Below, in pieces: positions 18,999 through 43,406 of a stretch of DNA of 46,348 bases (position 1 is the first letter of the stretch; each line of letters opens with the position of its first letter). Origin of the DNA: a virus; the IMG/VR virus record IMGVR_UViG_3300025085_002003, positions 1 through 46,348 of that record. One strand, given 5' to 3'. The notes beneath the pieces were generated by a model. It saw nothing but the letters and a program-made list of their open reading frames with translations, had not been told where the DNA came from and searched no databases. A program made the position numbers and the translations under genes.

Positions 18999-20162
18999 TT
19001 ATTTAAATGATATATCACCTGGATAAATTGGAACTGTTGCTCCAGGTTTTCGTTTTGGTATTTTACTATCTGCACTACTAACGCAACTCTCACTAATACA
19101 AACTTTAGGGGCATCAAATAACTTGAACCCACTCTCTACATACCCAAGTGGCTCATCCGCACAACTGTACGAACGTTTGATACTACCATCTGGCTCTCTA
19201 ATAATGATACCTTTGAACCCACTCGTACATTCCCATCCTTTAAACTTATTAAAGTTAAAAGCATTGAAACGTTCTGCCTGGTCCATGTACCATTTCTTTC
19301 CTTTACTGTCTTGAAATTCTACTTGCATTTGGTGTGGCACTGACTTGTCATCACCATTTATCGCATCCATTTTCCACATACTACCTGATTTAGGTTTTGG
19401 TCTTACTACTTTTATGCCAGTTTCTTTCTGTAATTCTCTGGTATAATCACGTTGTGGCATGCCATTACGCATTGTCTTTAATTGTTCATCTGTATAACCA
19501 TGTACTACGAAAGATGCAGTTGGGTCACTCTGAGGTTTTAATGTAACATTTATGCCACGATTGTGAAAGTATAATGCTCTTTCCCAGTCCCGGTCAAACC
19601 ATTCAGGAACAAGAACCATGTTGATTGTTACATGTACATCATGTTCCATACAGTACAATAACTTATCAGCAAACTCCTCTTCTTTCGCATACTCGCTGTG
19701 AAAAGATGCTGTAATACTTGCACGGTGCATTTTTGCAACAGTTTCGCAGTATGTTTTATGCCACTTCATATTACGTGACATATTAGTTGTCATATGAACA
19801 GAAGTATAATTAGTATTATCCACATCTCCAGCGAGGTGATTGAGGATGTCCAAATAGCCAGGATGAAAAGTAGGTTCACCGCCAGATAAAGAAAAGTGAA
19901 AAGAGTTAAATCCATTTTGTCTTGCTTGCCTTTTTATTTCGTCTATCGTTGCTAGACATAGTTCAGTTGGTCTGTGGTCTTTACGGTCACTTCTAGCATA
20001 CGGCCAACAATAAGAACACTTATAGTTACAGAATCTTCCCAGTAACCAACTCACTGAGAACAAATCTCTGTATAAAAGAGTTCGTTGTCCTACACTAACG
20101 AGGTCATCAAAGGGTATCTTTGTGAAGTCGTATTGTGACCAATATAAATCGTCTTTATTCAT
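18999..20162 (-). CDS. Radical SAM protein with C-terminal Cys cluster (387 aa)
   Basis: The radical SAM CxxxCxxC is Cys45-Cys49-Cys52 (GRFCNYKCSYCWPYARS), and the SAM-binding GGEP follows in FSLSGGEPTFHPGY. The C-terminal part has further cysteines (GWECTSGF, SYSCADEP, VCISESC) that could hold an auxiliary Fe-S cluster, as in SPASM/twitch enzymes. Its closest relatives in the window by architecture are the proteins at 29203 and 32079. It overlaps the upstream zinc-finger-like gene by 4 nt (ATGA). Substrate unknown. Confidence 0.85.
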   Translation of the reverse strand: MNKDDLYWSQYDFTKIPFDDLVSVGQRTLLYRDLFSVSWLLGRFCNYKCSYCWPYARSDRKDHRPTELCLATIDEIKRQARQNGFNSFHFSLSGGEPTFHPGYLDILNHLAGDVDNTNYTSVHMTTNMSRNMKWHKTYCETVAKMHRASITASFHSEYAKEEEFADKLLYCMEHDVHVTINMVLVPEWFDRDWERALYFHNRGINVTLKPQSDPTASFVVHGYTDEQLKTMRNGMPQRDYTRELQKETGIKVVRPKPKSGSMWKMDAINGDDKSVPHQMQVEFQDSKGKKWYMDQAERFNAFNFNKFKGWECTSGFKGIIIREPDGSIKRSYSCADEPLGYVESGFKLFDAPKVCISESCVSSADSKIPKRKPGATVPIYPGDISFK

Positions 20163-20515
20163 TTATGGCTCATCCCACATGGCTCATCAAATGTAAAATT
20201 AAAGAACCGTTGTTTTTTATTATACTTGTTTATAACTGTTTCGTAATCTATGCCGACTGCATCAAGGATAGTTTTGATATCTTCTGATTCATCTTCATTT
20301 AAGTCTTCTCTTATTTGGTCTTTGACATCTTGTGAAATCATATCGTAGATACTACCGTAACACCATTCACAGAACGTAACTGGTGTAACACCAAAGTGTC
20401 CTTGTACTCCGCCACATGATTCATCGTATTCATTACCACAGATACTACAACTATCTGACGGGTTAAATATTAAAGTATCATTGTCCTGTATAGTCTTTAA
20501 CTTCATCTTTTTCAT
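20159..20515 (-). CDS. Zinc-ribbon-like small protein (118 aa)
   Basis: The N-terminal 60 residues contain four CxxC-type cysteines (CSICGNEYDESC and FCEWCYGS) with a conserved-looking GGVQGHFGVTPV between them, as in a treble-clef or zinc-ribbon domain. The C-terminal half is acidic and helical. It is translationally coupled to the radical SAM gene at 18999 and may bind its substrate or RNA. No named family is recognised. Confidence 0.65.
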   Translation of the reverse strand: MKKMKLKTIQDNDTLIFNPSDSCSICGNEYDESCGGVQGHFGVTPVTFCEWCYGSIYDMISQDVKDQIREDLNEDESEDIKTILDAVGIDYETVINKYNKKQRFFNFTFDEPCGMSHK

Positions 20516-20651
20516 TTTGTCTCCTGTTGCGTTCTACAATATATCTATACCATTTCATTAACCACATTACTCTTTGAGGATAATGGTCTGGATTAGGTAT
20601 GTTATCTTCACCAAAATAATCTATAAATCCTTGTATTTCTTCGTCACTCAT
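20478..20651 (-). CDS. Small hypothetical protein (57 aa)
   Basis: A 57-residue ORF whose start overlaps the end of the upstream gene by 8 nt and whose 3' end overlaps the zinc-ribbon gene by 38 nt. The N-terminus is acidic (MSDEEIQGFIDYFGEDNIPN) and the centre is aromatic and basic (RVMWLMKWYRYIVERNRR). It fills an otherwise empty gap of about 130 nt. It looks like the short conserved peptides of T4-like phages; function unknown. Confidence 0.5.
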   Translation of the reverse strand: MSDEEIQGFIDYFGEDNIPNPDHYPQRVMWLMKWYRYIVERNRRQNEKDEVKDYTGQ

Positions 20652-21768
20652 AATGGAATCCTATTTGTTTATAAAATTCAATATTATTATTACACCAATC
20701 TTTCGTACTATTTGTAAACATAGATTTAGTTATATCTAAGTTGACATTTTTACTAAATGATTCTAGAATCTTTCCATTTATAACATCATCCATGGTATAG
20801 GTGTTTTCTCCGAATCCGTATGTTTGAAATTGATTATTGAATTCACTGTGCCACTCATAGTCATATTTGTGTTCTTTATAAAAATTGTTAGCATTATTTT
20901 TCATATTCATTTCGTGCGTGGTATACCGTATCTCATATTTATTATAATATTGTTCTAACAACAATAGAGTTATAGTGTGAGAAAATAACATCACACCATC
21001 ATCTAATTTATTATGATTATCCAATATTTTGATTACTAAATCGTTAGCCCCATTGTTTGTTATAGCATTGTTCTCTGCACTTATCTCCAGTTTTTCAAAG
21101 AGACTTTTGAAAAGAAACCACCGATAATCTTCAATTCCATCATCTCTTATTCTACCAAATTCTTCATTAATATAAGATATCTTATCTTCTCTAGTATATA
21201 GTGGTAACATGTTTGTCTTTAATATTTGAGCAATGTAAGTATACTCACACCATTGCTGTGACCCAGGTATTAGTGATATTTTAACTGAATCTTCAAACAA
21301 TGCCAAGCATTTATCCACCAGATGCATCCGCACGATAGCATGTTCTTTTATCATATCAAAATGATATATGTTCGATAAGCAATAGTGTATAGTGCCTCCA
21401 TAATTTGTGCTAGAAAAATACTTTAATAATTCTCTTGCTAGGTCATTAAAATTTTCTATATCGAGGTCTTCATAACCTGATGTGAAGAAATTATTAAATA
21501 AATGGTCTATTGAGAAGTGCCTATTATTTATTGCATTGTGTCCTCCCCATTTTTCAGGTTCTAAAGACGTAGAATAAAAAGATTCTTGCATAGTGTTAAC
21601 TATATATTCTCCACCACATCCACCCACATATGAAAAGAATACAAGTCGTTTAGAAACCCGTTTCAACCAATCTTCTAACCAATCAACTGTAATAATTATT
21701 TTGAGTTCTTGTTCAGATGGTATTTCTATAATTTTTTCACTGTCTTTTACTAACCTTCTACGACTCAT
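20644..21768 (-). CDS. Hypothetical protein, possible P-loop/sulfotransferase-like (374 aa)
   Basis: A large soluble protein with no firm family. Near residue 45 a beta-strand followed by a Gly-rich loop (LVFFSYVGGCGGEYIVNTM) resembles the phosphate-binding loop of sulfotransferase-like proteins, though the canonical GxxGxGK is absent. The rest is helical, rich in Asn, Tyr and acidic residues. The gene overlaps the radical SAM gene at 21765 by 4 nt (ATGA). It takes the position where a SPASM-coding gene occurs in the sister module at 24470, but it is not related to SPASM. A sulfotransferase role is a guess. Confidence 0.5.
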   Translation of the reverse strand: MSRRRLVKDSEKIIEIPSEQELKIIITVDWLEDWLKRVSKRLVFFSYVGGCGGEYIVNTMQESFYSTSLEPEKWGGHNAINNRHFSIDHLFNNFFTSGYEDLDIENFNDLARELLKYFSSTNYGGTIHYCLSNIYHFDMIKEHAIVRMHLVDKCLALFEDSVKISLIPGSQQWCEYTYIAQILKTNMLPLYTREDKISYINEEFGRIRDDGIEDYRWFLFKSLFEKLEISAENNAITNNGANDLVIKILDNHNKLDDGVMLFSHTITLLLLEQYYNKYEIRYTTHEMNMKNNANNFYKEHKYDYEWHSEFNNQFQTYGFGENTYTMDDVINGKILESFSKNVNLDITKSMFTNSTKDWCNNNIEFYKQIGFHYE

Positions 21769-22493
21769 AGTGGTTTATCTCTTTCTTTTACTGTTTTATA
21801 TCCTTCTGGCAATACAATCTCATCTATTTCATTATCGACATCTCTATTTCTAGTGGATTTAATAATACCAAATCTTTCAAACCCCTCACTTTCAGATAAT
21901 TTTTTAATATCATCTATCTGATGTTGATTCCATTTGAATACAATAAATTGCCAACCTGCTTTACCACCTGCTGAGATGTATGCTCTCCAATTCTTCTGTA
22001 AAGTTTTCCAATCAACGTTCTTTCTATAGAGATGATTAGTTTCTTCATCTCCATCTATTCCAAAAATAACTGTCAAACGATTATTCAATTCTTTAGATAA
22101 TTCTCCTAACTCACTCCAAAAACTTTCATTTCTAGACCCACCATTTACATGAACCCAAATGTCTTTATCTTTATTGTCCAGATGATAGAAGTACTTTATA
22201 ATCTCTATCACATCTGGATTTATTACAGGTTCATCAACATTACCACATAAAACTATTTCATCTAAGTGTTTCCATCTATCAGGTAGAAATGTTTTCTTTA
22301 TATCTTCTATTGATAGATATGAATTGTTAAGTTCGACATCATAGTCTATCGTAAATTCTTTTCGTTCTTTAGGTGTTTCATTCTGAAGTTCAATCATATA
22401 GTTTCTTTCACATTGTGAACAGAATGCATTGCAGTAGTTCGTTATTTCTAACTGCAATCGTCCTATATTACCTTCATTTAATCCTAAAGTCAT
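21765..22493 (-). CDS. Radical SAM core protein without SPASM domain (242 aa)
   Basis: CxxxCxxC is Cys21-Cys25-Cys28 (NYCNAFCSQCERN). In place of GGE it has LCGNVDEPVINPD, the CGN variant shared with the proteins at 24783 and 37256. It is a close paralogue of 24783: both have RWKHLD, NHLYRKNV, NWRAYISAGG and FNQHQ-like segments in the same order. Unlike 24783 it has no separate SPASM ORF behind it. It follows the PP-loop ATPase at 22497 by 3 nt, forming one PP-loop/radical SAM pair. Substrate unknown. Confidence 0.85.
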   Translation of the reverse strand: MTLGLNEGNIGRLQLEITNYCNAFCSQCERNYMIELQNETPKERKEFTIDYDVELNNSYLSIEDIKKTFLPDRWKHLDEIVLCGNVDEPVINPDVIEIIKYFYHLDNKDKDIWVHVNGGSRNESFWSELGELSKELNNRLTVIFGIDGDEETNHLYRKNVDWKTLQKNWRAYISAGGKAGWQFIVFKWNQHQIDDIKKLSESEGFERFGIIKSTRNRDVDNEIDEIVLPEGYKTVKERDKPL

Positions 22494-22496
22494 GTA

Positions 22497-23270
22497 TTAA
22501 TCTTTTGGCCAATCACTCATTGAATCAATTGCGTCATAGTTAAATATTTCTGCTGTTGCCCATTCTTTTTCAACACACCACCAACACTTCTTACATGTGA
22601 TTGTAAACTTTTCTGTATCTTCTATCCAGCCTTCACAAGACCTTGTTAATGGAGCCAAAGTGGCAAGTAATCCATATTTCTTATAAAATGCTAAAACGAT
22701 TCTTTTGTCTGTATGAATAAATGGTCGATACTCATGATATCTATCGTTGTCTTGTACTTGTTTTTTAAGCCATTTATCTCTATGTACCCAATCTCTTGCT
22801 GGCGCTCTATACTCCCATATATTCCCCCAAACTGGTTTACCTATTTCTTCATCTGGATTAAGAGTGACGCCATTAAACATTCCGGTGATTTTGTGCTTGG
22901 CGATTAATTCCCATTGTAATTTAGAACCATTATCAATGTAATCTTTTCCTTCTGTCATTTTAATCATATGTTCGCCAAACTTTACATTCGGGAATGCTTC
23001 TTTAACAAAAGCAACTGCTTTTTTAGAACCAATGTGCTGAGTAGGTTTTTCTTCGTGAATACATGTCCATTGATGTATAGTAATGTCTAGGTCATTCTTG
23101 TCGATATGATATGCTAATAGGTACAACAACATTGACGAGTCCATGCCGCCAGACATACCAATTGCTATGTCTTTATGATTTAGATTTAGTTGTATTTCAT
23201 AGTTTTCAGGATGTATTTCATCGAATTTATCTTCACGACCATATATTATTGCTTTGTCATTTATTATCAT
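22497..23270 (-). CDS. PP-loop ATP pyrophosphatase with QueC-like C-terminal Cys cluster (module A)
   Basis: An N-type ATP-PPase. The PP-loop is MSGGMDSS (SGGMDS at residues 40-45), and an ATP-adenine-binding region follows. The C-terminus carries TRSCEGW, 13 residues, then CKKCWWCVEKEWA, that is C-x13-C-x2-C-x2-C, like the zinc site of QueC (7-cyano-7-deazaguanine synthase). QueC adenylates a carboxylate and converts it to a nitrile with ammonia. Here the substrate may differ, because no QueD, QueE or FolE is visible. It overlaps the upstream radical SAM/SPASM gene by 4 nt and is followed by another radical SAM gene. Confidence 0.82.
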   Translation of the reverse strand: MIINDKAIIYGREDKFDEIHPENYEIQLNLNHKDIAIGMSGGMDSSMLLYLLAYHIDKNDLDITIHQWTCIHEEKPTQHIGSKKAVAFVKEAFPNVKFGEHMIKMTEGKDYIDNGSKLQWELIAKHKITGMFNGVTLNPDEEIGKPVWGNIWEYRAPARDWVHRDKWLKKQVQDNDRYHEYRPFIHTDKRIVLAFYKKYGLLATLAPLTRSCEGWIEDTEKFTITCKKCWWCVEKEWATAEIFNYDAIDSMSDWPKD

Positions 23271-24457
23271 CTGTCATTCCTATCTGTAGTTTTCAAGTTC
23301 AATTTAGAACATTTTTCAGTACATACTTTTAATTTTGGGTTAACATTGTCATCATACTTATTAGAGAAACTTTCTTCTAAATCTTTTATAAAAAACACAT
23401 GGTTTATTATATCACTAAATGAATGTGAATGCAAGTTATTCCAATCATTATCATACTTAGATACAAATTTCTCCCAATTCTCTCTGTTGCCTATGTTTTG
23501 TCTTGTTTTATATTGATATGCCGAGTTAATCCAACAACATCTCCATACAGAACCATCATGAGATATTTGATAATTATTCTCTTTTTTCCATTTACAAACA
23601 ATACCAGCACTTTCTCTCGCATTTTCTAAATTATCGAACATATCTAAATTTTTATCTATTTTAATATCTTTGATAATTGATTCTGCTTTGCTTATTTGAG
23701 CATCAATGTCTTTATTACTAATCACTGATAATTCATTGTCTTTGCTTACTTCTTCGTCAAGTTTGCCTGCCTTTTTGCTTAACGCCAAAAAGACTGCTTT
23801 TGATTCTACTCGCTGTATTCTATTTCTTTGAAAGTATTTAAAGCCATGTTGTTCTGATAGTTTCTTTGCTCTTTCCTCGAGTTCTTCATTGAAATCAAAA
23901 GGTATCATTTTCCATACAGCACATCCACCACCACTAATAAATGCTTTTGCATTTTCTATTATCTTAGAATAGTTAGTATCAATTCTATACATATTCTGTG
24001 TTTTGTTATCTACACCATCTAAGTCAAACATTACATGATGTCTTCCTGGTAGATGTTCGTGTAGTATTTCACCTAGTTTCTTCCAAAACTCTGGTGTTTT
24101 ATATGAGCCGTTAGTAGAGATAATAAAATCGTGTATTCCCTTATACTCTGGACTTATAATTCCTAATTCCTCATCACCAAATGGTTCAGTATCGCCTTTT
24201 AGTTTTGATGCTGAATATTCTATCAGTTCTAAGAAGTCAGGATGAAAAGGACTATCGCCAAAACTTCCATCATATGTCAATTGTTTTACATTACCAACAA
24301 TCTCATCAATAAGTCTGTTATGGACATCAACTGACAAGTTTAAGTTCTTGGGTGGACTTGAAAATGTGCCTGTGTCAGTATTCAATACATCATGTCTAAT
24401 ACATCCTGGACATTTTGCTTGACAGTTAGAAGAAACTTCAATAGTTATATTCATCAT
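23267..24457 (-). CDS. Radical SAM/SPASM protein (396 aa)
   Basis: CxxxCxxC is Cys12-Cys16-Cys19 (SSNCQAKCPGCIRHD). Instead of GGE it has a DGSFGDSPFHPD segment, placing it near the CGN-type proteins at 21765, 24783 and 37256. The C-terminal SPASM-like domain has IVCKWKK, then ISHDGSVWRCCWINS, then LKVCTEKC, matching the layout of 24470 and 37256 (C ... G.V..CCW ... CxxKC). The linker around residues 225-290 is Lys/Asp-rich and helical. It precedes the PP-loop ATPase of module A with a 4-nt overlap. Confidence 0.85.
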   Translation of the reverse strand: MMNITIEVSSNCQAKCPGCIRHDVLNTDTGTFSSPPKNLNLSVDVHNRLIDEIVGNVKQLTYDGSFGDSPFHPDFLELIEYSASKLKGDTEPFGDEELGIISPEYKGIHDFIISTNGSYKTPEFWKKLGEILHEHLPGRHHVMFDLDGVDNKTQNMYRIDTNYSKIIENAKAFISGGGCAVWKMIPFDFNEELEERAKKLSEQHGFKYFQRNRIQRVESKAVFLALSKKAGKLDEEVSKDNELSVISNKDIDAQISKAESIIKDIKIDKNLDMFDNLENARESAGIVCKWKKENNYQISHDGSVWRCCWINSAYQYKTRQNIGNRENWEKFVSKYDNDWNNLHSHSFSDIINHVFFIKDLEESFSNKYDDNVNPKLKVCTEKCSKLNLKTTDRNDR

Positions 24458-24469
24458 AGTGGGTTTCTC

Positions 24470-24805
24470 TTATATGTGAACGTCATAATTTTCTTTGACG
24501 CATTTTTCTTTACATACATCTATTTTATGCATGTTATCTTCTATCCATTTAAATATAGGACCATTAATTATTTCTTCCATAGAATAATATTTGATATTGT
24601 GATATTTTTTATCTATACCTGAATCTTTCCACAATCTAATCGTGTGTTTTTGAATACCATACCAACAACACGGATATACATATCCTTTTGCAGAGATATA
24701 TATGTTACCCATAGTCTTGTGAAATTGGTCGCCACCATTTCCTACCTGTGCTTTACACTTAGGCTCTATTGTAATTGTTTTTTTAATTTCTGTCTTTTGT
24801 TGCAT
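24470..24805 (-). CDS. Stand-alone SPASM-like domain protein (111 aa)
   Basis: This ORF carries only the auxiliary-cluster part of a radical SAM/SPASM enzyme: PKCKAQV (Cys17), SAKGYVYPCCWYG (Cys46, Cys47) and DVCKEKCVKEN (Cys98, Cys102). Its start lies inside the end of the radical SAM core gene at 24783, with a 23-nt overlap in another frame and a GGAA before its ATG. In the paralogues at 23267 and 37256 the same domain is fused to the core. It may be a split two-subunit enzyme, a frameshifted gene, or a sequencing error. Fusion would need a +1 shift (or -2) before the TAA of the core gene. Confidence 0.7.
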   Translation of the reverse strand: MQQKTEIKKTITIEPKCKAQVGNGGDQFHKTMGNIYISAKGYVYPCCWYGIQKHTIRLWKDSGIDKKYHNIKYYSMEEIINGPIFKWIEDNMHKIDVCKEKCVKENYDVHI

Positions 24806-25574
24806 TTAAAATTTCCAAATAATTCTTACGAGTTGGTTCCACTCCCGCCTCTTTACACGCCTTTTTAATATGTGGCGGTACATATCGTCCATAATTTTCT
24901 GGTATTTCTATATTTTCTATTTTTTCGTCTTCGCCTCTAACGCTTTGTACAATATGAAATCTGTCGAAGTTTTCACTTTCGGAATAACTTTTAACTTCAT
25001 TCAGTTGATGTTGATTCCAACTGAACACTATAAACTGCCATTTCGCTCTGCCACCAGCAGATATATAAGCACGCCAGTTTTCTCGTAGCCTACTCCACTC
25101 AACATTCTTTCTATATAAATGGTTTGTATCTTCTAATCCATCAATACCCCACACAACCATCAATCGTTCGTTCATACTTGCTGACAACTCTCCAAGTTCT
25201 TTCCAAAATTCGATTGAGCGAATCCCGCCGTTGGTTGCAATATGCATTTTTATATTCGGTGCTAGTGTGTCCATATATTTTATAATTTCTATTATATCTG
25301 GATTAATAACAGGTTCATCAACATTGCCACAATAATGTATATCATCTAAATGTTTCCAACGACCCTTTACAAACGTTTCTTTAATTTCTTTTAAAGATAT
25401 GTAAGTATCATTAAGAGATAAATCAAAAGATGTATTACCTTCCCATCTATCTTTGGGCTTAGTGTCACTTAACTCTTTTAGATGGTGTCTTTCACATTGA
25501 GGACATGCGGCATTACAATAGTTTGTAAGTTCTATTTGTATTCTGCCAATGTCTGATTCCTGTGCCCAAGTCAT
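24783..25574 (-). CDS. Radical SAM core protein (263 aa), split from its SPASM domain
   Basis: CxxxCxxC is Cys20-Cys24-Cys27 (NYCNAACPQCERH). The GGE position is YCGNVDEPVINPD, as in its close paralogue at 21765. The ORF ends in ILNATKDRN just before the region where the fused homologues continue into SPASM; that domain is encoded by the overlapping ORF at 24470. It starts at the last nucleotide of the PP-loop ATPase stop (1-nt overlap), forming module B. The first 20 residues (DIGRIQIELTNYC) match the strand before the cluster in 21765 and 37256. Confidence 0.85.
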   Translation of the reverse strand: MTWAQESDIGRIQIELTNYCNAACPQCERHHLKELSDTKPKDRWEGNTSFDLSLNDTYISLKEIKETFVKGRWKHLDDIHYCGNVDEPVINPDIIEIIKYMDTLAPNIKMHIATNGGIRSIEFWKELGELSASMNERLMVVWGIDGLEDTNHLYRKNVEWSRLRENWRAYISAGGRAKWQFIVFSWNQHQLNEVKSYSESENFDRFHIVQSVRGEDEKIENIEIPENYGRYVPPHIKKACKEAGVEPTRKNYLEILNATKDRN

Positions 25575-26209: not shown

Positions 26210-27375
26210 ATGTTCTCCTTTATGATTTGTAGTGCTTCTTTATTGACTTCTTCAAATTTGGTATCTGTATGTGTATCAAGTAATTCTATATGTTTTAATG
26301 TTCGGTCTAATTCAGGTGCTATATCGATATCAGCCATCAATATATCATCTATCTTTTTATTGCCAGTCAAATGTTTCATACGAACATCTTTCGGTAATTG
26401 GTAAATGCTAAGATAATCTGGAGTAGTTAGTAGATGATATCCCGTTTCTATTCCTATATCACTAAAATACGTTGTTAATTCTTTCATTTTATTAAAGTTT
26501 AATATACTTATAACAGAATTTGTCATAAGATGGCGTATTTCTCCTGCATCCTTGTGTTTCTTATATTGGCGCATATTACTATCAATAGTTTTCCAATCAA
26601 CTCCCCAACGAATACATTCTGCTAGTTCTTCTATTGCATCAATACTAAATGTTATCACAAGATTTGGAAATTTTAATAACTTATCTAGTATTGCTTTCTT
26701 CGGGTATACACTTCCATTTGTTACTATCATCAGTTCAAACTTATCAGGTTCTATAACTTCTCGGTCAAGTTTATCCAAAAACCACTCGAAGTGTTTAGAA
26801 TAAAATGGTTCGCCACCTTCTATTTTGATAAATCTAAGATGACTCAAATCAGTGTTATCTAATACATGCTTCATTTGTTCTTGGTAATTACGATACTTAG
26901 TGTTCGTCATGTCTGCATCACTTACCATATTATACAGATTAAGTTCTTTAACTAATTCTTTTTTAGAACCCCATTTACTACTTTGTCCAGGATTACACAT
27001 TCTGCACATCATATTACAGGTAAAATCTAATGCTATTTCTAAATCTTGTATTGCACCTTTAACATGTAAATCTCTTCGTGAAAAGAGGTCGTTTGTTTCT
27101 ACTCGTCTGCTACGAAAACCTTCCCTTTCTTCTACTTTGCATTCTACACATATTTTAGGAAACTCACCCGATGCCAATTCATTCTGTAACTCTATGTATG
27201 GTTTTTTCTTATGTAATTCATCTAATGTTTCTACATCAAAAATTGTTGGAAGTTTACTCCATTCATCATCTTGTGGATTATTTTGCCAACTTTCAGTACG
27301 GGCACGACAGCACGGTCTCAAATTTCCATTAGTATCAACTAAGGCGACTCCACTGTGTGTATGAGTACAAAACAT
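26206..27375 (-). CDS. Radical SAM protein with N-terminal permuted auxiliary Cys motif (389 aa)
   Basis: Auxiliary cysteines precede the radical SAM core: Cys3, Cys22-Cys23 in GNLRPCCRAR, and Cys76/Cys79 in CVECKVEEREGFRSRR. The core CxxxCxxC is Cys120-Cys124-Cys127 (FTCNMMCRMCNPGQSS), followed by IEGGEPFYSKHF. Three other proteins here (27375, 32966, 35685) have the same order, though this one lacks the PW after the first Cys. NCBI names similar proteins twitch-domain radical SAM, as I recall. It shares a TAATG junction with the upstream gene and an ATGA with the PP-loop gene downstream. Confidence 0.85.
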   Translation of the reverse strand: MFCTHTHSGVALVDTNGNLRPCCRARTESWQNNPQDDEWSKLPTIFDVETLDELHKKKPYIELQNELASGEFPKICVECKVEEREGFRSRRVETNDLFSRRDLHVKGAIQDLEIALDFTCNMMCRMCNPGQSSKWGSKKELVKELNLYNMVSDADMTNTKYRNYQEQMKHVLDNTDLSHLRFIKIEGGEPFYSKHFEWFLDKLDREVIEPDKFELMIVTNGSVYPKKAILDKLLKFPNLVITFSIDAIEELAECIRWGVDWKTIDSNMRQYKKHKDAGEIRHLMTNSVISILNFNKMKELTTYFSDIGIETGYHLLTTPDYLSIYQLPKDVRMKHLTGNKKIDDILMADIDIAPELDRTLKHIELLDTHTDTKFEEVNKEALQIIKENI

Positions 27376-30405: not shown

Positions 30406-30421
30406 TATTTTCTTCCTAACT

Positions 30422-31141: not shown

Positions 31142-32088
31142 GAGCCCTCCGTTATTTTAATATCTTCAATTTCTGCTTTGTTCAGACCTTTGTCTGTTCC
31201 TCTCTCGTCATACATTCCATCAATTAACATTCGTAATGCTGTTCTTACTCCTGCTTGGTCACCCTCTTCGTCCCATCCAACATGAAATGAATCCGTCTCT
31301 CCTAAATTAAAATCTTTACATACTTTTGTATAATAATCTTCATATCTACTCCACCAAACGTCTGGTCCAAAGTGTTCCATCATATTAACACCTATCCACA
31401 TATCAGATACATTAGCATAATTAAAGTCGTTCATTATTTGTATCGGTCCTGGTGGATTTGGCAACTCATCACTTCTATAATATCTAATACCAATTCGTTG
31501 AGAACCCATTCCTAATGCTTTAGATAATGAGACTGATATAGACCTAACAGCAGGATGAGTAACATCAAACTCGAAATTTCTACATTGACCGAACCATGCA
31601 CCATCTATATGAACCGGAACTCCTATAGAGTGACAGTGGTCTAGCAACTTATCAAAATCTTTATGATAGCCAGTTGTTATACAAGAAGGATATGATACTA
31701 CAAATACATCTCCTTCTTTAATCTGAGTGTAGTCTGTAATCTGATTAACTTTGTAGTCTGTCAATCGGCGATGATACTTATACTCGCCTTTATATACTGT
31801 TATTTTTTTACCATTTAGCATATGCAATTCATCTAATTGATGTGTTGTTCCTAAAATAGCATCACGTCTATCAAATGTATCTAATCCTATATACTTTACT
31901 CGTTCATGTGACGTAATCCATTTATCAATGGCAGTCAAAAATGTCTGCGTATATTCGTGTGGGTCCCACGGATATTCTTCTGTTCCCATATTCTTTCTAA
32001 ATTTATGAAAGGCAGACATATACATTGGTCGTTGCCTTCTCGTTCCTAAATCATTTATTGTTAAATCTTCGTATTTCATTAGTTCCAT
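31126..32088 (-). CDS. PLP-dependent (fold type I) decarboxylase/aminotransferase-like protein
   Basis: PLP motifs are PVHIDGAWFGQ (Asp162, with the HxDxAW-like pattern common in group II decarboxylases and related aminotransferases) and ISVSLSKALGMGSQRIG (Lys190 as Schiff base). The 320 residues are short for fold type I, as for its counterpart at 17113. The start at 32088 overlaps the upstream gene by 10 nt; an alternative ATG at 32079 would make a TAATG junction and is equally plausible. It could supply an amine or amino-sugar intermediate. Substrate unknown. Confidence 0.7.
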   Translation of the reverse strand: MELMKYEDLTINDLGTRRQRPMYMSAFHKFRKNMGTEEYPWDPHEYTQTFLTAIDKWITSHERVKYIGLDTFDRRDAILGTTHQLDELHMLNGKKITVYKGEYKYHRRLTDYKVNQITDYTQIKEGDVFVVSYPSCITTGYHKDFDKLLDHCHSIGVPVHIDGAWFGQCRNFEFDVTHPAVRSISVSLSKALGMGSQRIGIRYYRSDELPNPPGPIQIMNDFNYANVSDMWIGVNMMEHFGPDVWWSRYEDYYTKVCKDFNLGETDSFHVGWDEEGDQAGVRTALRMLIDGMYDERGTDKGLNKAEIEDIKITEGSWKVE

Positions 32089-32975
32089 TTCTCCACAATT
32101 GCGTCTAATTTACAAGGACATGCAGTATAATCACACACAATGGGCTTGTCTGGTAAAGTATAATCACCAGTTAGTATATTGCCAAGTGAACCGCCAACTC
32201 TCTTAGTACATCTTAATATATTGCCATCAGGTTCTACCATTATTCGTTTCATGCCAGCAGTACAAGTATAGCCTTCAAATCGATGCAACTCTTTATCTAA
32301 CACTTTCATAAATTTCATCGGCTCACCATCAAAATGTAAATTTCTAGGGAATGTCCAATCTAGTCCAAAATCTTTCATATTATAATAATTATTACTTGTA
32401 ATCCATTCTCTTTGTTCATCAGTGTATTGAAAGTATTCAGTTCCATGAATGGATTTTCGTACGAACTTAGGTGTAATTTCAACCTTTAATCCTTTTAATC
32501 TTTCAAACAACGTTACTGCTCTCTCAAAGTTATTTGGTAGAATCATAAGAGGAATAGATACACTTGCTTTGTGTTGCATTATCTCTGCAACTTTATAAAA
32601 ATGGTCATCATCTGCTTCTTCATAATGCCACGATAGGAATACAAATGCTCGTTGGGCTCTAAATTTCTCCCAATATCTTAAAGTTCTTGACGCATTTGTA
32701 GAATACTCTACGAACACATTGTCAGAAGAAATAGTGTCAACAAAATCTTGGAACTTCGGCCACACTGTTGGTTCACCACCTAATACTTCTACATATAAAT
32801 ATTTGTTTCGTTCTTTCAACTCATCAATTAATTTTATATATGGTGCCCAATCTGTGGGCCATCGTTGCGACCCATCTCTATGAAAATCTGAACAATACGA
32901 ACAACTGTAATTGCAAACATTGTGAATAAACAATGTTACAATACAACAGTCTAAGTTTTCTGATGTTATGTGCAA
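32079..32975 (-). CDS. Radical SAM protein with SPASM-like tail (298 aa), TTG start
   Basis: CxxxCxxC is Cys21-Cys25-Cys28 (HNVCNYSCSYCSDFHRDG), with VEVLGGEPTVWPKF for SAM binding. The C-terminus has GYTCTAGMKR, EPDGNILRCTKR and IVCDYTACPCKLD (Cys281, Cys286, Cys288), a compact SPASM-like auxiliary cluster. The start is TTG, supported by an AAGGAG sequence 6 nt upstream and by the conserved N-terminal strand; it overlaps the upstream gene by 10 nt. Architecture is close to 18999 and 29203. Confidence 0.86.
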   Translation of the reverse strand: MHITSENLDCCIVTLFIHNVCNYSCSYCSDFHRDGSQRWPTDWAPYIKLIDELKERNKYLYVEVLGGEPTVWPKFQDFVDTISSDNVFVEYSTNASRTLRYWEKFRAQRAFVFLSWHYEEADDDHFYKVAEIMQHKASVSIPLMILPNNFERAVTLFERLKGLKVEITPKFVRKSIHGTEYFQYTDEQREWITSNNYYNMKDFGLDWTFPRNLHFDGEPMKFMKVLDKELHRFEGYTCTAGMKRIMVEPDGNILRCTKRVGGSLGNILTGDYTLPDKPIVCDYTACPCKLDAIVEKWN

Positions 32976-34330
32976 AACAACTCCTTATATTGTGGAACGA
33001 TATCTATTATATTTTGGTCTCGTGCTTCGTCAAGTTTGTTTGTAATCTTAATGAACTCTGGTAACCATTCCTCAGAATAATCTTCACTCAACATAAATCT
33101 AACTGTTGAATCTAAAACTGTACAGAAATGTTTCTTCGTTTTCTCTGGATGGTCACTAGCCTTTACCCAGTCTTTATATTCTTCATACAATGTAACTATT
33201 TCTTGTTTGTTCTTTTCTGGTAACACTTTAATGTTATAGTATTTTGGTGAGTGACACATGTGCTGTGTTATTGTTGGTCGTGGACTGTGATGAGGATTAT
33301 ACTTATCTAATCCAGACTCTTCTAATTTCCATTTCATAAACTCTGGCATATGATAAACATTGTAAGGCGTAACTGTAAAGGCAAACCATGCTTTCAAGTT
33401 TATACGTTCATTGTCATTTAATGTTTTCATATGTTTATAGACTGCTGGAAACTTTGCTGGTGTTCTTTGATAATCAAAGACTTCATTACATCCATCAATA
33501 CTAACACCGATACGAATCTGCTTAAACTGTTCCCATAGATATACTAGTCTGGTTGGTACCATAGTTAGATTAGAATTATATTCAATCTCTATGTTATGAG
33601 CATTACCACTCGCAACTAACTTCTCTAAACTTTCTTGGTGTTCTTTGATGATTAATGGTTCACCGCCAACGATGTATAATTTCTTAGCAGTAGTACAGTA
33701 TTTCTCAAACTGTTTCCAGTAATGGTCAGCATTCTTAAACCAATCATATTGGTCTGTTGCCCATTTGCCTTTATTGTTTTGTGTTAATTTAATTACATCA
33801 TGTGTATCTTTGTATTGAGTTCTTCCTGTTATCTTTACAAAGTCATCATACCACATATGAGAATCAGTAGGACCACACATTCTACATTTTAGATTACAGA
33901 AATTACCATAACGAATATCAAAGAAGTCAATGTTCTGTTTCTCAACATCAAGTGTGCCATCTGCCTCTGTGACTTCATGTATTCGTGCTTCAGAAAGTTC
34001 CCAATCTTCAGTTTCATATTCTCGTCTTGACCTAATACCGTTGACTTCTTCTTGTCTGCAACGTTCACATTCTGGATGCCATTCACCTTCCATCATCGTC
34101 TTGCGAACATCTTTCAATAGAATCGCATTTCTGGCTTCATTAAAATCATCACGTCCAGCGTTATAAGGAGTTCCATCTTCTTTCTTCATTATGCCACGCT
34201 GAGGTGAATACGAATTCGTATTACAACATATTCTCAAGTCACCATTATTTCTAAGATTGATTGAGTTCCATGGCATTGGACAAAGTGTGTTCCCTTTTGA
34301 TTTTGGTACGTTGTCAAAGTCTTTGCTCAT
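32966..34330 (-). CDS. Radical SAM protein with N-terminal permuted auxiliary Cys motif (454 aa)
   Basis: N-terminal Cys17-Pro-Met-Pro-Trp, Cys35-Cys36 in GDLRICCNTN, and Cys88/Cys91 in CERCRQEEVNGIRSRRE. The radical SAM motif is Cys145-Cys149-Cys152 (NFCNLKCRMCGPTDS), then YIVGGEPLIIKEHQ. It resembles the protein at 35685 most: both share the HMWYDDF/SLWVPDW-like segment and an NSNLT/NSNGV region. It follows the PP-loop gene at 34342 by 11 nt and so forms module D. Substrate unknown. Confidence 0.87.
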   Translation of the reverse strand: MSKDFDNVPKSKGNTLCPMPWNSINLRNNGDLRICCNTNSYSPQRGIMKKEDGTPYNAGRDDFNEARNAILLKDVRKTMMEGEWHPECERCRQEEVNGIRSRREYETEDWELSEARIHEVTEADGTLDVEKQNIDFFDIRYGNFCNLKCRMCGPTDSHMWYDDFVKITGRTQYKDTHDVIKLTQNNKGKWATDQYDWFKNADHYWKQFEKYCTTAKKLYIVGGEPLIIKEHQESLEKLVASGNAHNIEIEYNSNLTMVPTRLVYLWEQFKQIRIGVSIDGCNEVFDYQRTPAKFPAVYKHMKTLNDNERINLKAWFAFTVTPYNVYHMPEFMKWKLEESGLDKYNPHHSPRPTITQHMCHSPKYYNIKVLPEKNKQEIVTLYEEYKDWVKASDHPEKTKKHFCTVLDSTVRFMLSEDYSEEWLPEFIKITNKLDEARDQNIIDIVPQYKELFCT

Positions 34331-34341
34331 AATATTATCCT

Positions 34342-34998
34342 TTACTTAAATCCCCATTCCCTTTCTTTACACCACCAACATTCGCCACAATGTTCTAGTC
34401 CAGGGTCTTTTATGTTGTTAAAATAATCACAAGTAGGGTCATACTCACAACTTCTTGTTATTGGTAATAAACTATCTATTAAGTTTTCTTTTCTATACAA
34501 CTGTGCTATACCTTTCTTATTTGTATTTGCCCACGGCATATAAAATTTATTGTCTCTGTATGTCATCACATTGTCTGCTGAATCTTTTCTCGTGTAATCG
34601 AAGTCAAATACAGGCGTGAATTTACTTGCAATGTCATCTGGTGGATTCATCGTTGTTCCGTCATACACTATATTTATTTCTCGTTTATCTATGTCTTTCT
34701 GTGGTGCATCTATCATTGAACTGTCAGTTGCGGCTTCATCATAATGTATGTGATGTACTACATTATTATTTCCTGTTAATTCTATACATTTCTCTACCAC
34801 TCTTGGTGCAATGATTGAATTTCTTCTATACTTTAAATTACTTCCAGTTGTATAGATATGAATAGTGTCTTTGGTGTGTTTCATTAGATAGTACAATAAT
34901 ATAGCACTATCAACACCACCACTGACCATTATTCCTACTGGTCCAGGATACATTTTGATACTAATATTATCTAGTTGAATAATTCCTGAAGGTGACAC
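34342..34998 (-). CDS. PP-loop ATP pyrophosphatase with QueC-like Cys cluster (module D), GTG start
   Basis: PP-loop SGGVDS at residues 26-31 (GIMVSGGVDSAILLYY). The C-terminal cluster is TRSCEYDPTCDYFN, then EHCGECWWCKEREWGFK, matching the other three. The central YDGTTMNPPDDIA segment also aligns. It starts with GTG at a TAGTG junction with ThyX and is 218 residues long. Being next to ThyX raises the possibility of a nucleotide substrate, but the other three copies have no such neighbour. Confidence 0.83.
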   Translation of the reverse strand: MSPSGIIQLDNISIKMYPGPVGIMVSGGVDSAILLYYLMKHTKDTIHIYTTGSNLKYRRNSIIAPRVVEKCIELTGNNNVVHHIHYDEAATDSSMIDAPQKDIDKREINIVYDGTTMNPPDDIASKFTPVFDFDYTRKDSADNVMTYRDNKFYMPWANTNKKGIAQLYRKENLIDSLLPITRSCEYDPTCDYFNNIKDPGLEHCGECWWCKEREWGFK

Positions 34999-35684
34999 TA
35001 AACTAATTCTCCTGCAAGTGGAAATATCTCAGAAATAACTTTTGCACAAGCGTGAGCAATTTCCATATGCTCCTTTTGTGTGCCATTAGCACCACGCAAT
35101 TCAATATAATGTACCCAACTACGAATTGACCCATTCATATACAAACGTGTCTTAGTTAATCCTTCTGGTAATACTACCCTTGCTTGTTCTTTTGCTATGC
35201 CATTTTCTATTGCCCATTCATAAACTTCTCTTGCTTGTTTGATTATGCCATGTTGTTTTCTTTGCCAATCTGTAATTAATTCTACAGTCTTTGCGTCTGC
35301 TTGAGTTGCCGGGTCTTTTTCAATATCAATAGAATTTTGCCTATTCTTGTGGTCTTGTAAACGGCATTCACGGGTAGTGAATGCATCACCCATTTCGCCT
35401 GGCTCTGCGTAACGTTGGCTGAACTCCTGAAATGAAAAACTTCTATGTCTTACAATTTGATGTGCAATGTCACGTGTTGTTTCAATTTCTAAACACGCAC
35501 TAACCATTTCAAGTGGACTCCAATGTTGATGTTTAATCAAATACTTAATTAGTTTCTCACTAGTTTTTTTATTGATTTGATTATTTGGATTACTTACTTT
35601 GGCACAATAAGCAATTAGGTCTTGTACGTTATCTAACTCCGAATTGTCCGGTGCCGTGCTGTGTGATATTAATTTAACTTTCAT
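34998..35684 (-). CDS. thyX: Flavin-dependent thymidylate synthase ThyX
   Basis: ThyX converts dUMP to dTMP using FAD, NADPH and methylene-tetrahydrofolate. The signature RHRx7S is present as RHRSFSFQEFSQRY (Arg79 to Ser89), and the protein is 228 residues, normal for the family. It begins 1 nt after the stop of the radical SAM gene at 35685 and shares a nucleotide with the PP-loop gene (TAGTG), so it sits within the radical SAM array. The phage also encodes DHFR on the other strand, although ThyX does not produce dihydrofolate. Confidence 0.95.
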   Translation of the reverse strand: MKVKLISHSTAPDNSELDNVQDLIAYCAKVSNPNNQINKKTSEKLIKYLIKHQHWSPLEMVSACLEIETTRDIAHQIVRHRSFSFQEFSQRYAEPGEMGDAFTTRECRLQDHKNRQNSIDIEKDPATQADAKTVELITDWQRKQHGIIKQAREVYEWAIENGIAKEQARVVLPEGLTKTRLYMNGSIRSWVHYIELRGANGTQKEHMEIAHACAKVISEIFPLAGELV

Positions 35685-37220
35685 TTATTCTCCATCTCTG
35701 TATAATTCTGCTTGATTAACATGAAATCCATCATCTTCTAGTTCTCTTAATAGTCTGTCATCAAACTCACCATCCCAATCATCACCATCTTCTGGTGTCC
35801 AATCTAGTAATGGTGCCATCTCTGGAAATACATCTCTAAAGTTTGTATCTCGTATTCCATCCATCTTGTTAATATACTCAATAAACTCTGGCATACGTTC
35901 TCTACTCCAATCTCCGCTCTCTGAGAATGATAACATACCTTTTAATCTTTTGACACCGTAGTTTGCTTCTTTCCATTCTTCAAAAGTTGCATCAGAGCCT
36001 CGGGTACTTAATTCCCAGTTTGCTTCTAACCATTCGATAAACTTATCAAACTTAGCACGAGTCATTTCTTTAAACCAATTTGGCAATACTTTAACATTTA
36101 GATGTGGCGGATGATAAACGAAGTGATAGTTAATCATACCTGCGCCTAACGGCCACATGTTAATTTTCTTAAACTTCATTTCTAATTTCCACTTAATGAA
36201 ATCAGGAAGATAATAAATGTTCAAGGCTTGAACTGCACAAGCAACTGTAACTTCTACATTAGGTCCTGTGTTATCTAATAAATGAAACATCTTAACTGTG
36301 TGGTCCCACTTACTAGGAAAACGAATATAGTCATTCATTTCGCCGATACTATCTACACTATAATGAAAACGCACATTCTTAAACTCATCCCACAAGTCAA
36401 ATAATCTCTGTGGCATTTCAACACCATTTGAGTTGTATCTCAATTCAATACCTTTGGCATATCCTGCTTTAACAACCTCTTCAAGTAGAGTATAATGTTC
36501 TTCAATGATAGTTGCTTCGCCACCAGCAAAGTATAACTGTTTCATATGAGGTATTTGTTCATACAACTGTTCCCAGAAAGCAGTATTCTTTTTATGCCAG
36601 TTATAACTAGCACCATCAATCTGTCCTTTGTTACCCCATTGCATAGTTTCTTTAAGGGATTCATTCTCAATACTTGGATGTAATTTAATCCAATCAGGAA
36701 CCCATAGCGAACTGTCGTGTGGTGAACACATAATACATTTCAGATTACACTTAGAACCCAGTCTTAAATCTAAGTAACGAATCTTTGGTGGTATTTCGCC
36801 TTCTACTGAAGTTTCTTCGAGTATCTCTTTTAAGTCTACACGTCTTGCCCAATATTCTGTTTCCCAGAAACGCTTAGACATATGACCTGCATCTTCTTCA
36901 GCATAACACTTCAGACATGACGCTGGTTTTTCTCCATTGAGCATTTGCTTTCTGACATTTTTCATGTAGTCATTATTCCAACTACTCATCAAGTCAGTTA
37001 CATTTAGATTTGCTGGTTTACCATCTGCTTGTTTAAGAACACCTACTTCACCGCCATGCTCTTTGTCGTTAGTTGCACCAACGCTTGATGCGTTTGCTGT
37101 ACAACACACTCGCATATGCCCGTTTGGTCGTGTACTTAAATGTATCCAAGGCAATAAACAAAAGGTATCGGTTGGTGCTTTCGTTCTCTTTCGCCATTCT
37201 TCAACGTTTTTATCTGTCAT
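35685..37220 (-). CDS. Radical SAM protein with N-terminal permuted auxiliary Cys motif (511 aa)
   Basis: The largest radical SAM protein here. N-terminal Cys21-Leu-Leu-Pro-Trp, Cys39-Cys40 in GHMRVCCTAN and Cys102/Cys105 in CLKCYAEEDAGHMSKR precede the core Cys158-Cys162-Cys165 (SKCNLKCIMCSPHDSS). SAM binding is YFAGGEATIIEEHY. The C-terminal 60 residues are acidic (EDGDDWDGEFDDRLLRELED). A late-type promoter box (minus strand, 37249-37258) lies about 30 nt upstream, which suggests separate late expression from this point. Substrate unknown. Confidence 0.87.
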   Translation of the reverse strand: MTDKNVEEWRKRTKAPTDTFCLLPWIHLSTRPNGHMRVCCTANASSVGATNDKEHGGEVGVLKQADGKPANLNVTDLMSSWNNDYMKNVRKQMLNGEKPASCLKCYAEEDAGHMSKRFWETEYWARRVDLKEILEETSVEGEIPPKIRYLDLRLGSKCNLKCIMCSPHDSSLWVPDWIKLHPSIENESLKETMQWGNKGQIDGASYNWHKKNTAFWEQLYEQIPHMKQLYFAGGEATIIEEHYTLLEEVVKAGYAKGIELRYNSNGVEMPQRLFDLWDEFKNVRFHYSVDSIGEMNDYIRFPSKWDHTVKMFHLLDNTGPNVEVTVACAVQALNIYYLPDFIKWKLEMKFKKINMWPLGAGMINYHFVYHPPHLNVKVLPNWFKEMTRAKFDKFIEWLEANWELSTRGSDATFEEWKEANYGVKRLKGMLSFSESGDWSRERMPEFIEYINKMDGIRDTNFRDVFPEMAPLLDWTPEDGDDWDGEFDDRLLRELEDDGFHVNQAELYRDGE

Positions 37221-37248
37221 CTTTGCCTTCTATTAATTTTATATACTG

Positions 37249-37258
37249 TATTTATCTA
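37249..37258 (-). promoter_or_regulatory. T4-late-type promoter box TAGATAAATA (minus strand)
   Basis: The minus strand reads TAGATAAATA here, identical to the last ten bases of the plus-strand late-type boxes. It is about 30 nt upstream of the ATG at 37220 and contains the TAG stop of the preceding gene. It is the only exact TAGATAAATA box I found in the minus-strand block. Confidence 0.5.
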
Positions 37259-38368
37259 CGTAGTTTTTTCGTACTGTGCCTTGAAGGCATCAAATTCCTC
37301 TCCGCATTTCTGGGCACATACCATTGGTTTACCTAAGTGAGTATTTGGTTTGTCCCATGATTCAACCAATCTACCAGTAAAATATTCATTATTAAGTACT
37401 GATTTTACTCCGTGTCTTTTAGCGTCAAACACATCTTTACCGCCAGATTGTTGTAGTAATTCCCAGACTTGATTCTCGCCTGGCTTTTGCCAGAACTTGT
37501 ACATACTTCCTGCAACCCAACAGCACGGCAAGATTAATCCTTCTGCACTTAGATACATACTCTTTTCGGCTGCCACTTTACATTTGATTTTTACATTGTC
37601 AAAGTATTTTTCTAATGAGCCATGCTTCTCTTCTAATTTTATAATATCTTTAATAGCCTTGTTTTGGAATTTCACTTCTTTTGGTTTTTGTAGAAGTTGC
37701 TGTTCTTCGCCCTTTCGATTCATTGCTTGGTGTTCTTCTTTACCAGTCTTTTTTATAGTAGAATAAAATCTACCAGTTTTCTTTGGTATGAATTTAAAAA
37801 AGCCTGTTTCTTTTGCAATTGCTTCTGCTTCTTCTACTTGATGTTCATTGTGTGCAAAGATGAGAAAATCCCAATGGGCTCTACCTCCCGCTCCTATGAA
37901 CGCTAGTGCGTTTCTCCATGCTATATCCCAATTAACACCTTGACGATATAAATGATTTGTATCTGCTAATCCATCAAAAGAGAATGTAACATGTCCTTTG
38001 TTGCCTAATGTCTTTGCTAATTCTATCCACCAATCTTCTTTCTTTGCACCAGCATTTGTATTCATGTTTAACCACATGTTTGGATTTTGTTCTCTTAAAT
38101 ATTTGAATACTTCTAATGTATCATTTGCGATAATTGGGTCACCAAAATTGCCACACATGTAAAGTCTATCTAATTGTTTTACGAATTCTGGTGTTAGAAT
38201 TTTCTGAACATCTCCTACTGTCAATTCATGTAGTCCATTTTTGTCACCTAGATTAGGATTATCACGTCCGCCCTTAATATTTCTGTCACACATTGGACAA
38301 GATGCTTGGCACTTCTCTGTGATTTCTAAGTGAACTGCTCTGATATCTTCGTAGTTATATAGATTCAC
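37256..38368 (-). CDS. Radical SAM/SPASM protein (370 aa), GTG start
   Basis: CxxxCxxC is Cys20-Cys24-Cys27 (EKCQASCPMCDRNIKGG), with MCGNFGDPIIAND in place of GGE (CGN type). The fused SPASM domain has VKIKCKVA, LSAEGLILPCCWVAG and MVCAQKCGEEF. It is the fused counterpart of the split pair 24783/24470: NHLYRQGVNW, AFIGAGGRAHWDFLIFAHNE and HQVEEAE all have parallels in 24783. It starts with GTG at a TAGTG junction with the upstream gene. Substrate unknown; SPASM enzymes often modify peptides, but other targets are known. Confidence 0.88.
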   Translation of the reverse strand: MNLYNYEDIRAVHLEITEKCQASCPMCDRNIKGGRDNPNLGDKNGLHELTVGDVQKILTPEFVKQLDRLYMCGNFGDPIIANDTLEVFKYLREQNPNMWLNMNTNAGAKKEDWWIELAKTLGNKGHVTFSFDGLADTNHLYRQGVNWDIAWRNALAFIGAGGRAHWDFLIFAHNEHQVEEAEAIAKETGFFKFIPKKTGRFYSTIKKTGKEEHQAMNRKGEEQQLLQKPKEVKFQNKAIKDIIKLEEKHGSLEKYFDNVKIKCKVAAEKSMYLSAEGLILPCCWVAGSMYKFWQKPGENQVWELLQQSGGKDVFDAKRHGVKSVLNNEYFTGRLVESWDKPNTHLGKPMVCAQKCGEEFDAFKAQYEKTT

Positions 38369-43377: not shown

Positions 43378-43406
43378 ATTATAACACTTTTTTAGTCGGA
43401 TGTAAA
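43378..43406 (-). promoter_or_regulatory. Minus-strand sigma70-type promoter (TTTACA-17-TATAAT, extended -10)
   Basis: On the minus strand TTTACA (43406-43401) and TATAAT (43383-43378) are 17 nt apart, and GTGT precedes the -10, as in promoter 9382. It lies about 40 nt upstream of the ATG at 43341 and partly within the end of the carbamoyltransferase gene. It gives the downstream minus-strand block a second entry point. Confidence 0.7.

Follow-up and report, generated by a model that had tools for sequence, protein, structure and literature searches.

What would a phage do with eleven radical S-adenosylmethionine (SAM) proteins and four QueC-like PP-loop ATPases encoded in a single run of genes? 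The question is raised by the IMG/VR virus record IMGVR_UViG_3300025085_002003, which was analysed over its whole length of 46,348 bases (the window) and is probably a fragment. An earlier note on this DNA had described these fifteen open reading frames (ORFs) as one dense biosynthetic locus of a phage. The array proved to belong to a recurrent island, in which a conserved core frames an interior that is swapped as cassettes between phages, and components of which are shared with predatory bacteria, the Bdellovibrionota. As to its function, a polymorphic island for glycan or glycoconjugate biosynthesis, consisting of a core and exchangeable tailoring genes, is the tentative answer, to which slightly less than an even chance is given.

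All 15 ORFs were found at the coordinates reported, on the minus strand. The eleven radical SAM ORFs all contain CxxxCxxC and match Pfam Radical_SAM (PF04055) with E values of at most 0.0023. Seven of them exceed the curated Pfam cut-off, and the other four, members of group A defined below, are matched by radical SAM profiles of PHROG or NCBIfam. SGGxDS and a C-terminal CxxCxxC are present in each of the four PP-loop ORFs, as is TxSC. The ends had been described as overlapping or nearly touching, which holds for genes that overlap or are at most about 35 bp apart, but not for one gap of 128 bp (20515-20644). The start of the radical SAM ORF at 27375 is probably located downstream of position 28499, because the frame as listed overlaps a PP-loop gene by 89 bp. 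A scan for promoters and terminators inside the array gave background level only. Since many viral contigs show the same gene types in identical order and the ratios of nonsynonymous to synonymous substitution rates (dN/dS) of the radical SAM genes are 0.05-0.25, the array is not due to chance; chance or annotation artefact was rejected on the ORFs, profiles, motifs, purifying selection and recurrent gene order. Profiles did not place the ORFs in unrelated families, related loci conserve the association of PP-loop and radical SAM genes, and the description as a dense biosynthetic locus is upheld.

To what extent the arrangement recurs was apparent from searches of viral contigs. With one PP-loop protein 70 loci were detected, and the family alignment comprised 222 relatives. 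When PP-loop loci were grouped by PP-loop identity, at least three radical SAM genes were located within about 10 kb in 27 of 64 groups. Using the radical SAM protein encoded at 35685 (B35685) as anchor, 80 viral loci were obtained, 35 of them with a PP-loop gene, and those with full flanks harbored a mean of 8.8 radical SAM genes per approximately 20 kb. The mean was 1.1 for 30 full-flank control loci anchored on the thymidylate synthase ThyX. Four of these control loci had at least three radical SAM genes, and they were the only ones with a PP-loop gene (Fisher P 3.6e-5, an optimistic value as some loci look closely related). A control anchored on dihydrofolate reductase (DHFR) consisted of five close relatives only and was used for synteny alone. 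All locus counts are influenced by where fragments end and by the use of hidden Markov models made from the window's own proteins. Counted per whole contig, Radical_SAM matches numbered 25 (L279, 184 kb), 23 (L224, 243 kb) and 22 (L226, 328 kb), compared to 12 reported in 2017 (PMC5332604).

The viral loci revealed a frame of constant order: a carbamoyltransferase gene (often), a glycosyltransferase gene (GT40579; genes are designated by their lower coordinate in the window), a methyltransferase-like gene (MT38368), two radical SAM genes designated A* and B*, a variable interior, and a third radical SAM gene, C*, often followed by an Asp/Asn hydroxylase gene. All five core elements were recognized in 17 of 46 full-flank loci, a count limited by locus ends. 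Interior contents vary and include extra radical SAM and PP-loop genes, genes for pyridoxal phosphate (PLP) enzymes, nitroreductase-like, methyltransferase and SGNH-like proteins, and B12-radical SAM genes. ThyX lies inside only some arrays, and DHFR is located near the window array. Usually between the methyltransferase-like gene and A*, 46 other loci encode a conserved protein of about 74 amino acids (for example L258:6234-6455), which neither the window nor the core loci of Bdellovibrionota encode. Among cultured phages, no matches to the PP-loop, glycosyltransferase or C* proteins were found. In the window, the run reads as follows:

46103..46348 (-), IscU-like Fe-S scaffold, truncated by the window edge (NCBIfam TIGR01999, E 2e-39, partial)
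45767..46102 (-), IscA-type Fe-S carrier (Pfam Fe-S_biosyn, 3e-18; TIGR02011, 4e-42)
45039..45812 (-), DUF6071 protein (Pfam PF19547, 4e-11), possibly SGNH-like by motif
43392..44948 (-), carbamoyltransferase, NodU-related (Pfam PF16861, 2e-55; PF02543, 7e-41), often upstream of viral arrays
40579..43341 (-), core GT40579, several tandem GT-A-like units, the last one canonical (unit scan; AlphaFold2 and Foldseek of a single-unit relative; dN/dS 0.08)
39642..40628 (-), MT39642, paralogue of MT38368 by alignment; no family match
38368..39642 (-), core MT38368, methyltransferase-like by motif only; conserved, adjoins A* in viruses and Bdellovibrionota
37256..38368 (-), core radical SAM A*, group A; CQASCPMC; Pfam 2e-4 and NF033640 3e-14, both below cut-off; Bdellovibrionota orthologues
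35685..37220 (-), core radical SAM B*, group B, twitch; NF033640 429 bits (cut-off 170); 61-70% identity in Bdellovibrionota; dN/dS 0.05
34998..35684 (-), ThyX thymidylate synthase, within the array (Pfam Thy1, 4e-43); same position in L005, L007 and L010
34342..34998 (-), PP-loop enzyme 1; SGGVDS, CGECWWCKER; predicted QueC fold
32966..34330 (-), radical SAM, group B; NF033640 345 bits; common to exchanged blocks (mosaic comparison)
32079..32975 (-), radical SAM, group C; Pfam 9e-10; CNYSCSYC
31126..32088 (-), PLP-type enzyme, weakly assigned (Pyridoxal_deC, sub-threshold, E 0.023); recurs within arrays
30422..31141 (-), 2-oxoglutarate (2OG)-oxygenase-like by motif only; no Pfam match; dN/dS 0.41
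29203..30462 (-), radical SAM, group C; Pfam 3e-9
28411..29202 (-), PP-loop enzyme 2; SGGADS, CGYCFWC; dN/dS 0.585
27375..28499 (-), radical SAM, group B, start probably later than listed; NF033640 199 bits
26206..27375 (-), radical SAM, group B; NF033640 201 bits
25574..26209 (-), PP-loop enzyme 3; SGGADS, CETCFFC; Pfam QueC 1e-4
24783..25574 (-), radical SAM, group A, without SPASM domain; Pfam 1e-5, below cut-off; PHROG 21308, 5e-22
24470..24805 (-), detached SPASM domain (Pfam SPASM, 4e-7)
23267..24457 (-), radical SAM, group A; Pfam 2e-6, just below cut-off
22497..23270 (-), PP-loop enzyme 4; SGGMDS, CKKCWWC
21765..22493 (-), radical SAM, group A, without SPASM domain; PHROG 21308, 7e-19; 57% identical to 24783
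20644..21768 (-), protein of no recognized family within the run; no Pfam match
20159..20515 (-), small Cys-rich protein, conserved C-terminus (alignment)
18999..20162 (-), core radical SAM C*, group C; Pfam 3.5e-14; placed by tree; in 17 of 291 Bdellovibrionota genomes
17113..18027 (-), PLP-type and aminotransferase-like, weakly assigned (Aminotran_1_2, sub-threshold, E 0.0015); conserved in L312 and L313, again next to C*
16500..17108 (-), Asp/Asn beta-hydroxylase-like, at the end of the run (Pfam PF05118, 3e-9)

The IscA and IscU genes stand at the head of the run. Among the labels given in the earlier note to neighboring genes, carbamoyl transferase is backed by Pfam and glycosyl transferase by the predicted GT-A fold, while methyl transferase comes from a motif only; behind PLP (31126, 17113) and 2OG (30422) there are motifs or matches below threshold. 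The product of 20159-20515 (-), the gene of which overlaps C* by 4 bp, ends in QRFFNxxFxEPCGMSxK, almost invariant in four sister phages, and could be a substrate or partner. Outside the run, at 4461-9385 on the plus strand, genes for an AMP-binding ligase, a flavoprotein of the tryptophan-halogenase family, a GNAT-like protein and a ketosynthase are located in a row, a second small biosynthetic set which is partly conserved in the sister phages L312 and L313.

Exchange of the interior was evident from DNA comparisons. From 32,982 to 46,341, the window is 87-90% identical to phage L209, in which most of 25.4-33.0 kb has no counterpart, and from 28,338 to 34,393 it is 90% identical to phage L015, whose neighboring genes otherwise differ. 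The exchanged block consists of PP28411, C29203, OG30422, PLP31126 and C32079, and B32966 is common to both. The radical SAM genes are functional, since their dN/dS values relative to close relatives are low, 0.05-0.14 with 0.25 for A23267. Those of the PP-loop genes are higher (0.16-0.59). Within the block shared with L015, values of 0.585 for PP28411 and 0.41 for the 2OG-like gene compare to 0.07-0.10 for the surrounding radical SAM and PLP genes at broadly similar dS. Faster change of the PP-loop and 2OG-like genes fits specificity-determining roles, but would agree with relaxed constraint as well.

By blastp, the radical SAM proteins fall into three groups: A (21765, 23267, 24783, 37256), B (26206, 27375, 32966, 35685) and C (18999, 29203, 32079). 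All four group B proteins pass the curated cut-off of NF033640, 'twitch domain-containing radical SAM' (201, 199, 345 and 429 bits versus 170), and are members of this subfamily, whereas groups A and C score below it; the subfamily is not tied to a known reaction. A radical SAM protein and its SPASM domain are split into separate overlapping genes at 24470-25574 (-), and the same split is found in L005, L007 and L070.

Is the island restricted to viruses? The earlier note had presented it as a phage locus, and it does recur in viral contigs, but Bdellovibrionota chromosomes have the core and, at other loci, arrays of PP-loop and radical SAM genes. In genomes from GTDB, the closest credible chromosomal relatives of B35685 were detected in Bdellovibrionota at 61-70% identity, several of them on long contigs. 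A*, B* and C* are clustered there, in most cases accompanied by GT40579- or MT38368-like genes and at times by hardly anything more, as in L148 (GT-B*-C*-A*) and L145 (C*-A*-B*-MT). C* itself occurs sporadically, in 17 of the 291 Bdellovibrionota genomes sampled. A maximum-likelihood tree of C*, rooted at its midpoint only, united all virus sequences in a clade (100/99) with no Bdellovibrionota sequence in it; a single exchange between the groups, in either direction, is the simplest reading. PP-loop proteins with CGxCWWCxER are encoded beside radical SAM arrays on Bdellovibrionota contigs, three in L164 and one in L165 (a contig of 937 kb), so that phages are not alone in having this pairing. 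That the PP-loop family is confined to viruses, as zero matches to CWWC[KL]ERE in a genome scan had suggested, was rejected on the same two loci. Five contigs of metagenome-assembled genomes, L137, L152 and L154-L156 (labelled Planctomycetota, Rickettsiales, Gammaproteobacteria, Acidimicrobiaceae and Chloroflexi), look like viruses and are probably mis-binned; the arrays of L154-L156 nest within the viral clade of the C* tree. The phage itself is a marine one and probably of jumbo type, the latter judging from its RNaseH, 54% identical to those of PA5oct and MIJ3, and from the length of related contigs. A T4-like or pelagiphage identity was not supported, as RNaseH points to PA5oct-type jumbo phages.

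The label 'QueC-like' could be retained for the fold of the PP-loop proteins, but probably not for their function. The four ORFs match one another with E values from 1e-21 to 6e-9, three being 30-34% identical to the fourth. The AlphaFold2 model of 34342 (predicted local distance difference test score, pLDDT, 87.6) gave QueC (3bl5, E 9e-6) as best fold match and Cap9 as third. QueC signatures were taken from PMC13329287 and scored on 21 PP-loop sequences. The SGGxDS ATP pyrophosphate loop as well as TxSC and CxxCxxC are present in all 21, and the exact C(x)8CxxCxxC spacing of the QueC zinc site in none. The substrate motifs YxQxHxxE and YPDC were found in 0/21 and VPxRN in 1/21; an NPP motif takes the place of YPDC. 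Because these signatures are missing, the substrate is probably not 7-carboxy-7-deazaguanine (CDG), and the proteins, in spite of fold and Cys triad, are probably not preQ0 synthases. None of the window proteins scanned reached the QueE cut-off, and QueD was not detected in Pfam scans of the window; on motifs and partners missing, the canonical queuosine/7-deazaguanine pathway was rejected. The window PP-loop proteins share fold, SGGxDS loop and Cys triad with QueC, Cap9 and QatC but lack the substrate-recognition motifs of QueC and Cap9, and their partners are radical SAM genes, not queD/queE, CD-NTase or qatB. From what is known of the family, they would use ATP to activate a carboxylate or a similar group, which ammonia or an amine would then attack. 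In T4-like loci among L031-L074, a lone PP-loop gene of the window family lies beside ribonucleotide reductase genes with no or one radical SAM gene. A different PP-loop protein of about 369 amino acids with a weak QueC match is encoded beside the core in two Bdellovibrionota loci (L140:7645-8751, L310:14218-15327).

What could such an island produce? Four products had been considered in the earlier note: a glycan is best supported, a peptide or protein comes next, and a nucleobase and a cofactor are less likely. A glycan or glycoconjugate is favored because of the glycosyltransferase with its predicted GT-A fold in the core, the carbamoyltransferase, bacterial neighborhoods rich in glycosyltransferase family 2 (GT2) genes, and cultured Vibrio phage K566, in which four group B radical SAM proteins are interleaved with GT8/GT4 proteins. 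The AlphaFold2 model of a single-unit relative of GT40579 (pLDDT 90.4) matched GT-A folds in Foldseek, ppGalNAcT2, SunS, RmlT and others, with E values of 1e-4 to 1e-3. At least ten GT2 genes are located within 10 kb of C* in 5 of 12 Bdellovibrionota genomes among the matches listed, where about one genome was expected (180 GT2 genes in 41.7 Mb; P 0.002); genomes, not genes, were the unit, as glycosyltransferase genes cluster. In a census of core neighbors, Glycos_transf_2 was found in 12 of 67.

The following account of the chemical steps, their sugar substrate, the acceptor and the advantage gained is our inference. The conserved core, comprising the GT-A glycosyltransferase, the methyltransferase-like protein, A*, B* and C*, would frame interchangeable tailoring genes for further radical SAM proteins, QueC-fold PP-loop enzymes, a PLP enzyme and an oxygenase, with the carbamoyltransferase at the edge. 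The radical SAM proteins, part of whose Fe-S clusters would come from IscU and IscA of the phage, may act by radical C-H chemistry on a sugar or on an intermediate linked to one. Each PP-loop enzyme would convert an ATP-activated carboxylate to an amide, a nitrile or an amide-linked adduct. The product may be capped by methyl and carbamoyl groups and moved onto an acceptor by the GT-A protein, and a cassette swap would alter the product. As a guess, the product could be attached either to the particle of the phage itself or to the surface glycan of the infected cell, in the latter case to block rival phages. That the islands form a modular class, with a fixed core of GT-A protein, methyltransferase-like protein and three radical SAM proteins plus radical SAM and PP-loop cassettes, that jumbo phages and Bdellovibrionota share this class, and that its product is a new type of molecule differing from strain to strain, is conceivable, and is put forward with some reserve.

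Several observations weigh against the glycan reading. The GT-A matches in Foldseek are distant (TM score below 0.5), and the best ones include peptide glycosyltransferases. By sequence, neither the glycosyltransferase nor the methyltransferase-like family has a convincing PDB relative; the latter is without clear relative altogether, with a weak Pfam methyltransferase match in 1 of 22 members, so that its label comes from motifs. Seven of the 12 Bdellovibrionota genomes have no GT2 gene within 10 kb of C* among the matches listed. A flippase, a polymerase or a nucleotide-sugar pathway was not recognized among the window proteins scanned, functions which the host could supply. Finally, relaxed constraint could be the cause of the faster change in the PP-loop genes.

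SPASM and twitch radical SAM proteins are typical peptide maturases. Both types are present here, and the array could modify a peptide or protein, the PP-loop enzymes attaching a group to a terminus in the manner of Cap9 and the glycosyltransferase glycosylating the polypeptide. The best Foldseek matches of the core glycosyltransferase, a polypeptide GalNAc transferase and SunS, point in this direction, as do Cap9, the third fold match of the PP-loop protein, which modifies a protein N-terminus, and the small protein with its almost invariant C-terminus abutting C* in four sister phages. However, no precursor-like conserved small ORF was detected in the window, where a precursor might be variable or distant, the small ORF common to the 46 other loci is lacking both here and in the core loci of bacteria, and GT2 genes are abundant in the latter. 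Peptide or protein modification, the main rival to the glycan reading, is considered unlikely on balance. A free small molecule such as a cofactor, signal or inhibitor, not attached to a polymer, is rather improbable. The mixture of radical SAM, PP-loop, PLP, oxygenase and carbamoyl functions resembles natural-product clusters, and a second biosynthetic set is located on the opposite strand, but a GT-A protein belongs to the core in phages and bacteria, and a transporter or resistance gene was not recognizable among the window genes scanned.

There is very little probability that a modified nucleobase is made for phage DNA or host tRNA, as in pathways with QueC and QueE. The QueC fold, ThyX inside and DHFR near the array, and the pairing of a lone PP-loop gene with ribonucleotide reductase genes in some T4-like loci would agree with it, but QueC signatures and a QueE above cut-off are missing, ThyX is found in only some arrays, and the bacterial core loci are without common nucleic-acid genes. 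A collection of immunity-type proteins for defence or counter-defence, to which a faint resemblance of group C proteins to viperin (34-39 bits) and of the PP-loop proteins to QatC/QueC models would point, is scarcely credible: the best window score for viperin (NF038283) in the profile search was 39 bits versus a cut-off of 180, the QatC model reached 17 bits versus 280, PADLOC scores of the PP-loop proteins were marginal, the CDG-binding YxDC of Cap9 from type IV CBASS (cyclic oligonucleotide-based antiphage signaling system) is present in 0/21 PP-loop sequences, and neither a CD-NTase nor a QatA or QatD partner was recognized in Pfam scans of the window, so that CBASS, Qat and viperin were rejected on cut-offs and missing partners.

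Polymorphic surface-polysaccharide loci have conserved flanks, an exchangeable interior, glycosyltransferases, and carbamoyl and methyl decoration. The window resembles them in layout and decoration genes, but radical SAM genes dominate and a flippase or polymerase was not recognized; it is likened to them by layout and not by membership. The earlier note knew of no described phage pathway with this content. Radical SAM-rich marine phages had in fact been reported, without an explanation (PMC5332604, PMC7029224). In 2017, 12 radical SAM genes and an A-type Fe-S carrier were reported for the marine T4-like environmental virus TARA_ERS488813_N000010 (PMC5332604). Like the window, it is rich in radical SAM genes and has this carrier; in the accessible text these were given as a count, with PP-loop pairing, core and exchangeable interior not described. 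It is T4-like, while the window has 11 radical SAM genes in 19 kb and RNaseH of jumbo type. In 2020, radical SAM cassettes were reported in the host-recognition island of pelagimyophages, for whose glycosyltransferases a role in altering the host surface has been proposed (PMC7029224). This hypervariable island, by whose radical SAM gene cassettes phages differ, is variable like the window, but it is situated among tail-fibre genes, none of which were recognized among the window genes scanned, and PP-loop proteins are not mentioned in the portion of that paper at hand. For the PP-loop/radical SAM pairing, the core with exchangeable cassettes and the link to Bdellovibrionota, no description was found in the open-access literature searched, most subscription papers and preprints being outside this scope.

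The PP-loop proteins of the window would form one more branch of the QueC superfamily, the repurposing of which, as in QatC and Cap9, is a current topic. The core common to Bdellovibrionota offers a minimal, expressible set of five genes for finding the chemistry. Long biosynthetic pathways are seldom attributed to phages themselves, and the array spans about 20-30 kb. Many aquatic viruses carry it, purifying selection acts on it and parts of it are swapped between phages, so that its product probably matters to infection.

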